Shown piece after piece: positions 3,203-38,263 of a DNA stretch of 48,999 nt. The notes below the pieces were generated by a model. The model was not told the origin of the DNA, ran no database searches, and was given only the letters and a program-made list of their open reading frames with translations. Numbering within the stretch: the stretch's first letter is position 1; each line of letters starts with the position of its first letter. The stretch lies in contig JAFZUS010000125.1 in assembly GCA_017618275.1 (NCBI GenBank), forward strand, positions 1-48,999, in the 5' to 3' direction. Both the position numbers and the translations under genes were made by a program. Origin of the DNA: Prevotella sp. GTDB taxonomy: Bacteria > Bacteroidota > Bacteroidia > Bacteroidales > Bacteroidaceae.

Positions 3203-3883
3203 ATGGGCATATTGTATATTGTACCGACCCCCGTCGGGAATATGGAAGATATGACATTCCGTGCCATCCGTATATTAAAGGAGGTGGACTTGGTACTGGC
3301 GGAAGATACCCGGACATCGGGCATCCTGCTGAAACACTACGAGATCAAGAACTCGCTGATGTCGCACCATAAGTTCAATGAGCACGGCACCTCGGCAGCC
3401 ATCGTCAACCGTCTGCTGGCCGGTGAGAATGTCGCCCTGATCAGCGATGCAGGCACGCCAGGCATCAGTGATCCCGGGTTCTTCCTCGTCCGTGAGGCCG
3501 TCAGGGCTGGGGTGGAGGTGCAGTGCCTGCCCGGGGCCACAGCCTTCGTGCCGGCCTTGGTGTCGAGCGGACTGCCTTGCGACCGTTTCGCCTTCGAGGG
3601 GTTCCTGCCTCAGAAGAAAGGGCGTCAGACAAAACTCCTCTCCCTGAAGGATGAGCAGCGCACCATGATCTTCTATGAGTCGCCCTACCGGTTGGTGAAG
3701 ACGTTGGAACAGTTTGCTGAGGTATATGGCCCAGACCGTCAGGTGAGTGTCTGCCGTGAGATATCCAAGGTACACGAAGAGAGCGTGCGAGGTACATTGG
3801 AGGAGGTGGCGGCCCATTTCAAGGCGCATGCGCCGAAGGGTGAGATCGTCATCGTCCTTGAGGGCGCAAAAGAGAATGGATAA
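3203..3883 (+). CDS. rsmI: 16S rRNA (cytidine1402-2'-O)-methyltransferase
   Basis: RsmI uses S-adenosylmethionine to 2'-O-methylate C1402 in the decoding centre of 16S rRNA. The 226-residue protein has the tetrapyrrole-methylase fold signature: YIVPTPVGNMEDMTFRA at the N-terminus, LAEDTRTSGILL, and the SAM-binding loop ALISDAGTPGISDPG, followed by CLPGATAFVPALV and FEGFLPQKKG. The frame opens 12 bases earlier at a TTG, but that codon lies in the -7 promoter box, so the ATG at 3203 is the start. Twenty-five bases separate it from the lipoprotein gene downstream, which may be co-transcribed. Confidence 0.93.
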   Translation: MGILYIVPTPVGNMEDMTFRAIRILKEVDLVLAEDTRTSGILLKHYEIKNSLMSHHKFNEHGTSAAIVNRLLAGENVALISDAGTPGISDPGFFLVREAVRAGVEVQCLPGATAFVPALVSSGLPCDRFAFEGFLPQKKGRQTKLLSLKDEQRTMIFYESPYRLVKTLEQFAEVYGPDRQVSVCREISKVHEESVRGTLEEVAAHFKAHAPKGEIVIVLEGAKENG

Positions 3884-3908
3884 TTGTTAGTTTAATTAAA
3901 TAAAGATT

Positions 3909-17996: not shown

Positions 17997-18989
17997 TTAT
18001 AGTGTTTTGATTTCATCGATTGTCAAACCCGTATAACGGGCTATTTTCTCGAAACTCTCTTTGTCTTTTTTCATGCTCCGTGCAATTTCGTAATCTCTCT
18101 CAGTACGACCTTCTGCACGACCTTCTGCACGACCTTCTGCACGACCTTCTGCACGACCTTCTGCACGACCTTCTGCACGACCTTCTGCACGACCTTCTGC
18201 ACGACCTTCAAGTTTCGCCTCAAGCAATTGGGTCTTTAGCACGTCAGTGTCACGGACAAGTGTATCGAGATAGTTGTCGTAGGCCTGCTGTTGTTCTGGT
18301 GACATGCGCAAATATTCAAGACGCTCACGAGCCTCTTTCAGACCTGGGGCGGCTGTATCTGGGCTGATGTACTCGTCCTTCAGATAACGCATCCATTCCT
18401 CTAACGGGTCAGTGGCCAGTTTGTCGAATTCATTGACACGGATAATGTAGTATTCTGGAAAGACATCGAGGGGGGACACAACCTTCAGATCCTCACGCTC
18501 ATACTCCGTTAACTCCAATTGATCACCATCATGTACGCCTGTCAATATAGTCTGCCCATGGTATAGATAGTCGGTACCCTCACCAAGGTTGAAGTAAAGG
18601 ATGTTGATGCTGAACACCTTCTTGACATTCTCGTAGGCCTTGCCGCTCTTCATGTGCTCCGTGATGACCTTGGCCACGCCATAAAGCATGCGCTGAAGGT
18701 AATCAATCTCACGGCTCTGCTGAATCTCAACAATAATGATTTCGCCTTTAGAGTTCACTGCCTTGATATCTACACGGTTGTGCTTGTCGTCACGCGATTC
18801 TTGGTTCGATTCACTCTCAAGCAATTCCACGATGCTCACTTTCTCCTTTACAAGCACAGAGATTAGGCCTTCGAACACCACAAAATCGGCCTTATTGCGG
18901 AGAATGTTCTTCGCTGCCCAGTCGAACCTTACGTACTTGTTGTGACTCATCTTTGCCTCCTTCTTTGTTTCTTTCATTTTATTCTCCAT
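17997..18989 (-). CDS. Rpn-family recombination-promoting nuclease/putative transposase (PDDEXK type)
   Basis: The product belongs to the PD-(D/E)xK nuclease/transposase family (Rpn/YhgA-like). N-terminal KYVRFDWAAKNILRNKADFVVFEGLISVL is followed by the active-site core RVDIKAVNSKGEIIIVEIQQ (Asp74, Glu88 and Gln90 in this numbering), the helical FDKLATDPLEEWMRYLK, and a charged tail. Residues about 261-296 are eight EGRA units and one EGRT, a variable-length hinge typical of this family, followed by a terminal helical segment. The frame opens at 19019 on a TTG inside the -7 promoter box, so that start is rejected. ATG 18989 is taken, although ATG 18950 has a strong AAGGAGG five bases upstream and is a good alternative. 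The gene is enclosed by a 74-bp direct repeat. Confidence 0.85.
   Translation of the reverse strand: MENKMKETKKEAKMSHNKYVRFDWAAKNILRNKADFVVFEGLISVLVKEKVSIVELLESESNQESRDDKHNRVDIKAVNSKGEIIIVEIQQSREIDYLQRMLYGVAKVITEHMKSGKAYENVKKVFSINILYFNLGEGTDYLYHGQTILTGVHDGDQLELTEYEREDLKVVSPLDVFPEYYIIRVNEFDKLATDPLEEWMRYLKDEYISPDTAAPGLKEARERLEYLRMSPEQQQAYDNYLDTLVRDTDVLKTQLLEAKLEGRAEGRAEGRAEGRAEGRAEGRAEGRAEGRAEGRTERDYEIARSMKKDKESFEKIARYTGLTIDEIKTL
18102..18209 (-). repeat. 12-bp tandem repeat encoding (EGRA)n in the Rpn-family gene
   Basis: Nine consecutive 12-base units (plus-strand form CTTCTGCACGAC) are almost identical at DNA level. Unit number changes keep the reading frame, so length can vary without inactivating the gene. 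Confidence 0.95.
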
Positions 18990-19016
18990 AATAATTTGAT
19001 TCTTGATTGAACGCCG

Positions 19017-19048
19017 CAAAGATACGAAGATTATCTGATACCGCCAAA
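19017..19048 (-). promoter_or_regulatory. Promoter of the Rpn-family gene
   Basis: On the minus strand TTTG (plus 19045-19048), 20 bases, TATCTTTG (plus 19017-19024). A consensus promoter suggests the gene is expressed. Confidence 0.75.
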
Positions 19049-21444: not shown

Positions 21445-22194
21445 GTGGATTGGAAAATCATACATATCGACGAGACGGATTCCACCAATCATTGGCTGCG
21501 GATGACACAGGGGGACGGTTCTTTTGTGACATCAGACGATATCACAAAAGAACCGTCCCCCTGTGTCATTGTTGTGGCTGATTATCAGACGGCAGGGAAG
21601 GGCTGCGGAAGCAACTCCTGGGAGAGTGAGCGTGGCAAGAACCTGACGTTCTCGATGCTGATTCATCCGGAGGAAATACCGGCGAATGAGCAATTCCGTA
21701 TTACAGAGATGACATCGGTGGCGATGTGCGAGACTTTGAAACGATACGGCTGCAAGGAGGTCAGCATCAAATGGCCGAACGACATTTATGTCGGTGACCG
21801 TAAGATTTGTGGGATGCTGATAGAAAACCGCTTGCAGGGCAGCGTCATCAAGGACAGCATCATCGGCATCGGACTGAACGTGAACCAGCGTGAGTTCCTG
21901 AGTGATGCCCCTAATCCCGTATCCCTCTATCAGTTGACGGGGCAAGAGTTTGACCTTGGGGAGTTGTTGAAGGCATTCCTTGATGCTTTCGATAGTTCCT
22001 ACAACAGTAAAACAACTTGTTTTGCCTACAAAGGAATGCTTTATAGGAGGGGAAGAGATAGTCTCTTTAAGGACAAAACAACTTGTTTTACAGCGACGCT
22101 AACGGATGTCTTGCCCGACGGGAGGCTTCTGCTTGTGGATCAGGAGGGTCGGGAACGGCTTTACGCCTTTAAGGAAATACAATTTATCATATAA
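21445..22194 (+). CDS. birA: Biotin-[acetyl-CoA-carboxylase] ligase with an embedded palindromic repeat
   Basis: BirA attaches biotin to the carrier domain of acyl-CoA carboxylases. Motifs present: DETDSTNHWL near the N-terminus, ADYQTAGKGCGSNSWES (biotinyl-AMP loop), KWPNDIYVGDRKICGMLIE, and C-terminal DGRLLLVDQEG with YAFKEI. The class is the short one without a DNA-binding domain, 249 residues. The frame is open from 21304 and includes ATGs, but these precede the promoter, so the GTG at 21445 (VDWKIIHIDETD) is chosen. Two oddities: residues about 20-42, in the linker between the first two motifs, are encoded by a 28-bp perfect inverted repeat, and the C-terminal part contains two copies of AAAACAACTTGTTTT. 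pyrH follows after 15 bases. Confidence 0.9.
   Translation: MDWKIIHIDETDSTNHWLRMTQGDGSFVTSDDITKEPSPCVIVVADYQTAGKGCGSNSWESERGKNLTFSMLIHPEEIPANEQFRITEMTSVAMCETLKRYGCKEVSIKWPNDIYVGDRKICGMLIENRLQGSVIKDSIIGIGLNVNQREFLSDAPNPVSLYQLTGQEFDLGELLKAFLDAFDSSYNSKTTCFAYKGMLYRRGRDSLFKDKTTCFTATLTDVLPDGRLLLVDQEGRERLYAFKEIQFII
21502..21569. repeat. REP-like inverted repeat inside birA (28-bp perfect arms, 12-base loop)
   Basis: Arms 21502-21529 and 21542-21569 are exact reverse complements. Each arm contains a 23-mer of the form CACA-N-GGGGAC-N8-TGTG, the same layout as the REPs beside the RAYT transposase at 36.9-38.3 kb. The whole element is read in frame as birA codons. Confidence 0.9.
22009..22089. repeat. 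Two copies of the 15-base palindrome AAAACAACTTGTTTT in birA
   Basis: Copies at 22009-22023 and 22075-22089, 66 bases apart. Each has 7-bp arms around a central C and is translated in the same frame as KTTCF. Confidence 0.9.
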
Positions 22195-22209: not shown

Positions 22210-22920
22210 ATGGCAAGATTTAAGAGAATCCTATTGAAATTGTCGGGCGAGAGCCTGATGGGAAAGCAGGGTCATGGTATCGACCCTGAGCGTTTGGGCG
22301 ACTATGCCCGTCAGATTAAGGAAGTGTCCGAGATGGGTGTGCAGATTGGCATTGTCATCGGTGGTGGTAACATCTTCCGTGGACTGAGCGGTGCGAAGAA
22401 AGGTTTCGACCGTGTGAAGGGCGACCAGATGGGCATGTGTGCCACAGTGATCAATTCCTTGGCACTGAGCAGTGCCCTTGATGCAGAGGGTGTGAAGAAC
22501 AAGGTGCTGACGGCCATCCGTATGGAACCGATCGGTGAGTTCTACAGCAAGTGGAAAGCCATCGAGGCTATGGAGGCCGGTTATGTGTGTATCTTCTCTG
22601 CCGGCACGGGTCAGCCTTACTTTACGACGGATACAGGCTCGAGCCTGCGAGGTGTGGAGATTGAGGCCGACGTGATGTTGAAGGGTACCCGTGTGGACGG
22701 TGTCTATACGGCTGATCCCGAGAAGGACCCGACAGCCACAAAGTTTGAGGAGATCACTTATCAGGAGGTGCTGGAACGTGGTCTGAAGGTGATGGACCTC
22801 TCGGCTGTCTGCATGTGTCAGGACAACAACCTGCCTATCTACGTCTTTAATATGGACATAGTAGGTAATCTGAAAAAGGTGATGGATGGTGAGCAGATAG
22901 GAACGCTCGTGCATCCTTAG
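22210..22920 (+). CDS. pyrH: UMP kinase
   Basis: PyrH phosphorylates UMP to UDP in pyrimidine biosynthesis. The 236-residue protein shows amino-acid-kinase-fold motifs: KRILLKLSGESLMG (phosphate loop), IGIVIGGGNIFRG, GDQMGMCATVINSLAL, SAGTGQPYFTTDTGSSLRGVEIEADVMLKGTRVDGVYTADPEKDP and the C-terminal NMDIVGNLKKVM. Length and motifs are normal for a homohexameric bacterial UMP kinase. It is probably co-transcribed with birA (gap of 15 bases) and converges on the DUF4834 gene. Confidence 0.95.
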   Translation: MARFKRILLKLSGESLMGKQGHGIDPERLGDYARQIKEVSEMGVQIGIVIGGGNIFRGLSGAKKGFDRVKGDQMGMCATVINSLALSSALDAEGVKNKVLTAIRMEPIGEFYSKWKAIEAMEAGYVCIFSAGTGQPYFTTDTGSSLRGVEIEADVMLKGTRVDGVYTADPEKDPTATKFEEITYQEVLERGLKVMDLSAVCMCQDNNLPIYVFNMDIVGNLKKVMDGEQIGTLVHP

Positions 22921-36849: not shown

Positions 36850-36874
36850 CTCACATGGGGACAGGAGTGCTGTG
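36850..36874 (+). repeat. REP element, left flank of the RAYT locus
   Basis: 25 bases that are the exact reverse complement of 38218-38242. The core follows CACA-T-GGGGAC-N8-TGTG. It lies four bases beyond the stop codon of the transposase gene. Confidence 0.9.
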
Positions 36875-36878
36875 CGAT

Positions 36879-37667
36879 TTAAGCCGTTCTGATGATAGAA
36901 AAACTGATTCCTGTCAGACGAACGAGTTGTCTGATACTGGCTCCATACAGTTTTGCTGCTCTGATAATGTCATTCCTACGTTCACGACTGTATAGTTGTA
37001 TATCCGAAGGCTGTCTGAGTCCAAAAGAAACTGAAAGGAATTCCTTCACTTCCTCATCACTTCTGTTAATATCTCCACTATCATAGTCCAATATCATCGT
37101 TGTCTTTGGCAAAGGTTCATTTACCAATTCTTTTAATTCTGCCAATGGCATCCGAGCAAAAACATGACTAACATTGCATATTATAGGAATACAACTACTG
37201 GCTCGTTCATATTCGTTCCAACTGCTCCACTCATAGTCATTGACGTTTTTCGTGATACCTGCTGCAACGGGATTCTGGTGGATGTATCGAAGCAAGGTAA
37301 AGAAATAGGCAGCATCATTAACAGGCTCACTCTTATATCTATCTTGGAACAGGTGCCCAAAGTGTTGGTATTTCCTGTTATAATGCTTGGCATATGAAAT
37401 GCCGATGCGCTTTATCACCTCCCCAATACTTTCTGCATTCTCCCTGATAAGAAGATGAACATGATTAGTCATTAGACAATAGGCATAGAAAGTACATCTT
37501 GCAGGCAGTGGTTGCCTATTCTTATCTGTAGGATTGACCATCTGTAGAAGGATCTCCCTGAATCGGATATAGTCATCCGTATCCTCAAAGATGTTCTGCC
37601 TGTTAATACCACGCATCATTACATGATAGATGCCCGTCCCACTTACTACTCTTGGATTTCGTGCCAT
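36879..37667 (-). CDS. REP-associated tyrosine transposase (RAYT, IS200-like Y1)
   Basis: RAYTs are single-copy HUH/Y1 transposases thought to spread REP hairpins. This 262-residue protein has ARNPRVVSGTGIYHVMMRGINRQNIF, the metal-binding HUH motif in MTNHVHLLI, the family hallmark FGHLFQDRYKSEPV, and RYIHQNPVAAG. The C-terminal tail (DIIRAAKLYGASIRQLVRLTGIS) looks like a helix-turn-helix. The catalytic tyrosine is probably in SYAKHYNRKY. The frame is open to 37718, upstream of the -7 box, so ATG 37667 (MARNP) is chosen. Four REP copies surround the gene. Confidence 0.92.
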   Translation of the reverse strand: MARNPRVVSGTGIYHVMMRGINRQNIFEDTDDYIRFREILLQMVNPTDKNRQPLPARCTFYAYCLMTNHVHLLIRENAESIGEVIKRIGISYAKHYNRKYQHFGHLFQDRYKSEPVNDAAYFFTLLRYIHQNPVAAGITKNVNDYEWSSWNEYERASSCIPIICNVSHVFARMPLAELKELVNEPLPKTTMILDYDSGDINRSDEEVKEFLSVSFGLRQPSDIQLYSRERRNDIIRAAKLYGASIRQLVRLTGISFSIIRTA

Positions 37668-37695
37668 AATACTAAACTTAAATAAATCAACGGTG

Positions 37696-37727
37696 CAAAG
37701 ATACGTATAATTATTCAAAGCGCCAAA
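37696..37727 (-). promoter_or_regulatory. Promoter of the RAYT gene
   Basis: Minus strand TTTG (plus 37724-37727), 20 bases, TATCTTTG (plus 37696-37703). Confidence 0.75.
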
Positions 37728-37775: not shown

Positions 37776-37798
37776 CCTCACAACTGTCCCCATGTGTC
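37776..37798 (-). repeat. REP element, shortened copy right of the RAYT gene
   Basis: Minus strand reads CACATGGGGACAGTTGTG (18 bases): the same CACA-T-GGGGAC head and TGTG tail with a shorter middle. Confidence 0.8.
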
Positions 37799-37885: not shown

Positions 37886-38046
37886 GCGTATGCGCGTATA
37901 TTTGTCATATCCACTTTTTATCCCACCTATCCCGCCGACCCCACACCTAAAGTAAAAAAACTTACGTGCGGGATGGGCGGAATAGGTGGGTTGTTTTCTG
38001 GTTCCTCTATACCACGCCCGCATGGACAAGATAGGTACGCAGCGAG

Positions 38047-38217: not shown

Positions 38218-38263
38218 CACAGCACTCCTGTCCCCATGTGAGGCTCCTGTCCCCATGTGAGGC
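38218..38263 (-). repeat. REP elements, right flank of the RAYT locus (one full, one truncated copy in tandem)
   Basis: 38218-38242 is the exact inverse of 36850-36874. 38243-38263 repeats its GGGGACAGGAGC part in the same orientation. They end just before the phosphatase gene's stop codon (38277) and may form its 3' end structure. Confidence 0.9.

Follow-up and report, generated by a model that had tools for sequence, protein, structure and literature searches.

Why a gene for an essential biotin ligase should contain a long palindrome that is translated in frame, and where such a sequence could have come from, is the question raised by a 48,999-nucleotide stretch of Prevotella sp. DNA (GenBank assembly GCA_017618275.1, contig JAFZUS010000125.1), hereafter the window; the genome assembly to which it belongs, denoted G000, is 92% complete. 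The initial annotation described a 28-bp perfect inverted repeat with a 12-base loop, read in frame inside birA, and both parts of this description hold: positions 21502-21529 are exactly complementary to 21542-21569 (28 of 28 pairs) across a 12-nt loop, and the element, read from the GTG at 21445, makes up residues 20-42 of the protein. The features at this locus are as follows.

21445..22194, plus strand: birA, biotin--[acetyl-CoA-carboxylase] ligase, 249 codons, GTG start (TIGR00121, E 1.9e-40)
21502..21569, no strand assigned: REPIN-like palindrome of repeat family 1, translated as BirA residues 20-42 (MTQGDGSFVTSDDITKEPSPCVI)
21502..21529, plus strand: left arm, first REP unit, exact complement of 21542-21569, with the 16-mer core at 21512-21527
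21542..21569, minus strand: right arm, inverted REP unit, with the 16-mer core at 21544-21559
22007..22091, no strand assigned: second repeat inside birA, two GTAAAACAAsTTGTTTTAC-like palindromes encoding KTTCF...KTTCF
22210..22920, plus strand: gene downstream of birA, pyrH in the initial annotation, of the amino acid kinase family (PF00696, E 1.4e-34)

The element ranks at the top of the inverted repeats detected in the window and, with one mismatch allowed, its arms grow to 32 nt while the loop shrinks to 4 nt. Folding of the mRNA, which had been suggested as a check, yielded -55.9 kcal/mol for the element, where shuffled versions averaged -16.0 (z -13.7; none of 200 shuffles was equally stable), and -84.9 kcal/mol (z -8.3) for the first 181 nt of the birA mRNA, in which the hairpin begins 57 nt past the first base of the start codon. 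The initial annotation suggested that such a hairpin could affect translation of birA and pyrH. The element has the structure of a REPIN, two REP units in inverted orientation within one hairpin; a single 25-nt REP unit also folds by itself (-7.5 kcal/mol). A chance palindrome was ruled out by the perfect arms, the existence of a repeat family and the stability of the hairpin relative to shuffles.

The search for BirA revealed no second full-length birA match in the assembly. In an AlphaFold2 model computed from the window protein and 31 relatives (mean pLDDT 88.3), the insert is placed between a helix (residues 14-20) and a strand (residues 40-48), with block mean pLDDT values of 52 and 56 and with residues 29-35 below 50; residues 51-60 are also low (54). 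According to this model, the insert fills a low-confidence loop that leads from helix 1 to strand 2 of BirA. In two solved biotin ligases compared at residue level, the alignment begins at residue 42, past the insert. The two palindromes of the second repeat inside birA start 66 nt apart, and this repeat keeps the native length of the protein while altering native residues, including a Gly that is nearly invariant in the alignment. Pairs of the same type and with equal spacing occur outside birA in G000 (C45), G181 (C28), G134 (C16) and G123 (C8), and a more diverged pair is found, likewise outside birA, in G034 (C59).

We then compared the birA linker across relatives, of which the nearest named records are uncultured Prevotella, several of them from ruminants, with 70% identity at best among the best 80 loci. 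Of 60 genomes searched for BirA, 59 had a match, and part of their linkers were inspected. In a side-by-side alignment of 28 rows, including two pairs of rows with identical sequence, the element is present in two genomes (G000 and G031) and absent from 26 rows. Relatives lacking these 60-70 bp, for which the initial annotation had proposed to look, thus exist, and their birA sequences rule out a conserved native linker. The accompanying claim that the linker of other BirA proteins carries no palindrome is accurate for most of them but fails for G031, which has the same element, and for several other linkers. An inverted repeat scoring at least 9 was detected in 9 of 83 distinct birA linkers (derived from 92 matches among 126 loci), two of them containing this element, compared with 3 of 597 control stretches of equal length (Fisher p 7e-7); at least one of the nine (L083) falls mostly within conserved codons and could be a chance occurrence. 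An unrelated palindrome (CCTCTCCCGCTG/CAGCGGGAGAGG) occupies the linker in G127 and in a named record with an identical linker, and remnant-looking fragments are present in G020 and G007 (AGAGGGACG..CGTCCCTTTGTGTC; ACAAAAAGAACCGTCCCTTTTGTGT). The birA linker is a recurrent landing site, in which other species carry other palindromes.

The two birA copies of the element more likely represent separate landings than one inherited copy, to judge from sequence comparison. A tree built from the Obg, fucokinase and BirA alignment columns of 12 genomes, which does not settle the branching order of G000, G018 and G143, groups G031 with G114 (support 100/99), and birA of G114 has a different linker without the element. 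Moreover, the insertion in G031 is shifted by one codon relative to G000, and at one inner stem pair both bases differ. Given this grouping, the shift and the changed stem, two landings are the simpler account, and a single ancestral insertion shared by G000 and G031 was judged less likely.

The element belongs to a dispersed repeat family, which we call family 1. Searching 10 genomes of the genus, picked for matching the element or for closeness of birA, with the 16-mer core GGGACGGTTCTTTTGT and at most one mismatch, we identified 118 arms in 9 of the 10, against a single match for a reversed-pattern control. These arms form 39 complete inverted pairs, in which both core arms have at most one mismatch, and 40 single arms; three further loci (G000 C29, G000 C179 and G031 C108), where the second arm is worse, were left out of the pairs. 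The nine genomes with a match contain 1 to 35 arms each, which is moderate at most, and the genomes behind the 39 pairs are mostly fragmentary assemblies, 78-94% complete. A wider sample of 200 genomes from the genus contained 18 that matched the 68-bp element, that of the window being one of them. The initial annotation had suggested searching the full genome for the 28-mer: the other matches found in G000 include no exact second copy, but diverged family members are present, namely, palindromes at C118:131252-131301 and C29:681-725, and single or degenerate copies in C191, C50, C179 and C170. These, together with the many more copies in relatives, support the view expressed there that mobile-repeat DNA became protein sequence.

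Most of the complete copies lie within genes. In 32 of the 39 pairs, the element is in frame within a long ORF, a raw share into which coding density is not factored, with 14 of 14 pairs in G143, 8 of 11 in G031, 4 of 4 in G018, 4 of 5 in G114, 1 of 1 in G112, 1 of 2 in G000 and none in G007 and G075 (one pair each). The seven others (G000 C118, G007 C101, G031 C38 twice and C55, G075 C81, and G114 C2:273932) are intergenic, located at gene ends or uncertain. The 32 in-gene pairs correspond to 25 sites in 22 genes, all with the frame preserved, and six of these sites are occupied in two or three genomes; as in the case of protein-coding palindromes, a repeated palindrome resides in conserved genes without breaking their frame. 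The host genes, named by Pfam or NCBIfam matches of the gene or an orthologue, encode biotin ligase, an RluA-family pseudouridine synthase (two sites), fucokinase/pyrophosphorylase, PrmC, MntP, RsmF (two sites), 5-formyltetrahydrofolate cyclo-ligase, a Trans_reg_C protein, an anaerobic sulfatase maturase, GH92 (G031 C47, where the pair is located at the contig start), a THUMP-like protein, a GSCFA protein, a sigma factor, a heavy-metal P-type ATPase (two sites), Obg, a HAD hydrolase, an acyltransferase, an ABC transporter, GH2, RsmD and DUF3109, in addition to a long ORF common to G018 and G031 for which no family exceeded the cut-off.

The reading frames are unevenly used. The first arm is translated as QGDGSFV or QRDGSFV in 23 of the 32 in-gene pairs, as GRFFC in eight and in the third frame in one, and the second arm gives KEPS in 25 of the 32 (counts obtained from 34 listed pairs minus G075 C81 and G114 C2:273932). 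Part of this bias is due to stop codons in the variable outer stem.

Single arms are distributed differently, with only 8 of 39 readable ones located inside genes (Fisher p 8e-8 in comparison with the pairs); 39 of the 40 were classified, G018 C4:2473 being left out. Those in genes are found in fkp (G000), GH92 (G112), IPP transferase (G018), prmC (G031), three periplasmic binding proteins (L204, L218, L220), where they may be native codons, and a TonB-dependent receptor (L205), where the match is probably due to chance; without these last four, the count is 4 of 39. The single arms L226 and L183, in ORFs without a Pfam match, were counted as outside genes, and moving them inside changes the result to 10 of 39 (p 1e-6). 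One reading of this difference is that indels that destroy an arm are purged inside genes and free to accumulate outside, so that complete copies are preserved in genes.

Orthologous sites can be filled, empty or occupied by something else. Among 13 genomes, obg carries the element in one (G143), other insertions in two (G022 and G075) and a short linker in 10. For mntP, matched in 10 of 13 genomes searched, the element is present in G143, G114 and G031, six genomes have a short or unrelated loop, and G000 has a different palindrome (GATCATGGGGACTGGCAC..GTGCCTGTCCCCGTGATC) at the site of the element. For fkp, matched in 12 of 13, there are full copies in G143 and G112, one arm in G000 and a decayed-looking form in G020. 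RsmF and PrmC show a similar mix of site states, and in fkp, GH92 and prmC, single-arm remnants occur where other genomes hold full copies. In obg, mntP and birA, the insert replaces a few linker codons, and neither a clean, single-step empty site nor a rule for target choice emerged from these loci; no target-site duplication was evident by eye, the insert-free sites being highly diverged and linker codons having been replaced. Other repeat-like inserts in linkers that host family 1 include PPSQGGDGG, SSPEGD, LAPRTSHLAPRTSYLAPR and NSQFSILNSQF, at loci L298 and L300 (obg of G075 and G022), L319 (fkp of G075) and L158 (rsmF of G018). In G114, a putative prmC appears to be split by about 1.9 kb containing another ORF, and each of its parts is accompanied by a complete element (L185/L075; C2:273932 and 275838); its N-terminal part, lacking a Pfam match, was recognized by eye against L187, and the arrangement looks like a composite insertion or an assembly effect.

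A clue to how the element could move comes from genes for REP-associated tyrosine transposases (RAYTs) in close relatives. A RAYT-type gene in G143 (L211:3043-3825) is bracketed by single, inverted family-1 arms, GTAACAGAGGGACGGTTCTTTTGTTA and its inverse, with cores at 2956-2971 and 3873-3888; the arms of the birA element thus match the inverted repeats around a transposase gene, as expected of a MITE. A RAYT gene in G031, the protein product of which is 74% identical to that of G143, runs into a complete element at its 3' end and takes its stop codon from it, the 5' side being cut by the contig end. The window itself encodes a third such protein, associated with the following features.

36879..37718, minus strand: RAYT-like Y1 transposase gene, motif NHVHLL (PF01797, E 6.7e-13; NF047646, 60.9 bits)
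36852..36865, plus strand: family-2 terminal repeat CACATGGGGACAGG, at one end of the window RAYT
37783..37796, minus strand: family-2 terminal repeat, at the other end, with one mismatch
38227..38259, minus strand: two further family-2 units in tandem

All three proteins, from the window, G143 and G031, contain the HUH motif NHVHLL and match PF01797 above its cut-off, and for each, NF047646 (REP-associated tyrosine transposase) is the best family, at 60.9, 65.0 and 70.6 bits, respectively, all below the cut-off of 80. The window RAYT, 59% identical to that of G143, is the only RAYT-like gene found in G000. It is bracketed by CACATGGGGACAG repeats, which constitute a second family, and was set aside as the mover of the birA element given that its ends are a different repeat. 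Hence, no cognate family-1 RAYT was found in the 92% complete G000 assembly, where the single RAYT match has other ends. Our scan of RAYT ends covered six loci, including L229, which lacks an ORF with the HUH motif; four further RAYTs (G031 C146, G112 C47, G114 C17 and C1) carry their own terminal repeats, which in the case of G114 C1 are partly family-1-like. The G000 mntP palindrome (L275) resembles family 2, and from this likeness, family 2 may also enter genes.

Pairing between the arms extends beyond the conserved part of the repeat. Of the 39 pairs, 37 have a 16-bp core without any mismatch between the arms, and outside the core, the sequence varies between copies with pairing mostly kept, such that 1118 of 1170 cells are paired, compared with a mean of 985 and a maximum of 1007 in 500 shuffles that ignore relatedness. 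When orthologous copies were compared, both members of a stem pair had changed once in birA, twice in fkp, twice in mntP (in two of three comparisons), once in the unknown ORF and three times at the N-site of the pseudouridine synthase; uncompensated differences number one, two, zero to one, two and three, respectively. In rsmF, G143 and G018 carry copies that agree at 30 of 30 pairs.

We consider it highly likely that the birA element is a REPIN- or MITE-type unit of a RAYT-linked family that moved into birA, was tolerated there and is read as a loop. It would consist of two REPs of approximately 25-28 nt, inverted and almost touching, with the same sequence as the repeats flanking RAYTs in close relatives, and a family-1 RAYT probably moved it into birA. 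The insertion would be tolerated thanks to the variable loop, the frame-keeping length and the stop-free frames, and the ribosome would read the element as a flexible, hydrophilic loop of 23 residues with BirA still working. As far as the sequence indicates, the peptide is presumably made and the enzyme active, and the birA copy probably confers no benefit. Points against this explanation are that G000 yielded no family-1 RAYT, that neither a target rule nor a clean empty site emerged, and that arms stay paired through some both-side changes, which would be needless for a dead relic, although uncompensated changes occur as well. Such pairing could arise if the arms were equalized by template switching or overwriting between copies, a process compatible with the insertion of a RAYT-linked repeat, which would render perfect pairing uninformative on age or function and which we regard as quite conceivable, if somewhat short of probable. 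The outer stems, differing between copies and yet mostly complementary, fit such equalization, as do the fkp copies of G143 and G112, which differ at two pairs on both sides, next to the decayed-looking G020 form; however, independent landings in one permissive linker would resemble each other, the rsmF copies are unchanged, and other sites contain uncompensated differences. That the hairpin is instead kept for a function, its structure in the mRNA tuning translation or decay of birA or the loop changing BirA, appears improbable. The stable fold at the start of the mRNA, the excess of paired cells over shuffles and the both-side changes in orthologous fkp, mntP, birA, unknown ORF and pseudouridine synthase copies would suit this idea, but the same comparisons include uncompensated differences and no change at all in rsmF, template switching or separate insertions of different copies also give both-side changes, the 22 host genes are unrelated to one another and so are the depths at which they contain the element, and 26 of 28 birA rows lack it.

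Two more alternatives were considered. The palindromes within genes could be artefacts of metagenome assembly, considering that draft, multi-contig assemblies underlie the window and most relatives and that palindromes can cause misassembly; with the frame kept at 25 distinct sites, six of them filled in two or three genomes, and with single-arm remnants at fkp, GH92 and prmC where full copies exist elsewhere, we find this very hard to credit. Least credible of all is a native BirA linker that chance, or selection on the protein, turned into a palindrome. The linker does vary in length and sequence among relatives, and a scan of the window for the core alone, allowing three mismatches, is weak evidence (it gave two matches, neither with a mismatch, where 0.29 would be expected, and at least two were found in 4 of 100 shuffles); against this stand the occurrence of the same DNA in unrelated genes and between genes and a hairpin far more stable than shuffles. 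Beyond the insertion of a RAYT-linked repeat into birA, we put forward, as a tentative extension that is possible but on the doubtful side, that family 1 belongs to a RAYT-linked REPIN lineage whose main habitat is genes. Its coding compatibility would consist in a length that preserves the frame, frames free of stops that yield a hydrophilic peptide, and arms mostly kept in pairing as their sequence changes; complete copies would persist in protein loops rather than in intergenic DNA, with several families competing for such loops. The modest copy numbers, the small, non-random sample and a raw in-gene share that leaves coding density out count against it.

Protein-coding palindromes and RAYT-class repeats within genes are already known, and what is new here is the host, the intragenic habitat and the candidate mover. 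Rickettsia palindromic elements (RPEs) are described as inserting in frame into ORFs (PMC3767692, PMC2229807), birA too is mentioned in one paper among the hosts of Rickettsia and Wolbachia protein-coding palindromes, and guanylate kinase bearing an RPE is reported to be translated and active with changed substrate affinity (PMC2229807). The RPEs and their Wolbachia counterparts (WPEs) appear analogous to family 1 in being short palindromes located in frame in conserved genes, with several families that are sometimes neighbours in orthologues. They come from an unrelated host phylum, and the likeness proposed here is one of operation. The RPEs are also longer, at 105-146 bp, and for CGTC repeats, which include RPE-4 and RPE-6, the source indicates apparently no dedicated transposase (PMC3733652), whereas family 1 has a RAYT with the same ends in relatives.

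REPINs, whose definition derives from extragenic REP doublets (Bertels and Rainey 2011, PMC3116915), resemble family 1, as far as that description goes, in the hairpin formed by an inverted REP doublet, the matching RAYT repeats and single arms that look like decay products. By the same description, REPINs are extragenic, in contrast to the predominantly intragenic doublets of family 1, in which, furthermore, the spacer is nearly absent and copies number in the tens at most. TIRYTs and TIRtrons (Di Nocera 2013, PMC3733652) comprise RAYT-like genes between terminal inverted repeats, the sequences of which also form repeat families, and the same source reports REPs wholly inside ORFs in several species, most of them in O. 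terrae (GTAG, a RAYT-tied class) and R. conorii (CGTC), with CGTC repeats known from Bacteroidetes among other phyla. The GTAG and CGTC repeats, with which family 1 can be compared by description only, are presented there as residing mainly between genes, the intragenic units being a subset; Prevotella does not occur in the text of that paper. One subclass of such transposases is reported to be mostly from Bacteroidetes (PMC6006769). Correia/NEMIS, ERIC and RU MITEs are, like family 1, small, non-autonomous inverted repeats that can be fused in frame to ORFs, but according to the same account they are about 100-200 bp in size and primarily intergenic (PMC2229807). In the open-access literature, we found no report of elements of this type in Prevotella or Bacteroidetes.

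The many in-frame copies suggest that parasitic DNA has repeatedly been turned into protein in this bacterium and its relatives, including in an essential enzyme gene. Protein-coding palindromes are best described in Rickettsiales, where the sources, to the extent available, name no mover. Relatives of ruminant Prevotella offer a candidate transposase with the same ends, filled and empty orthologous sites, and housekeeping hosts. Two questions thereby become open to test: how a host comes to tolerate selfish DNA as protein sequence, and which loops in essential proteins can take up 20-odd foreign residues.

Two other features of the window deserve mention. Beside the RAYT gene, positions 37922-37990 contain a 29-nt inverted repeat (83%) that, by eye, is unlike either family, and at 17997-19019, a minus-strand ORF carries a run of GRAE repeats near its C-terminus.
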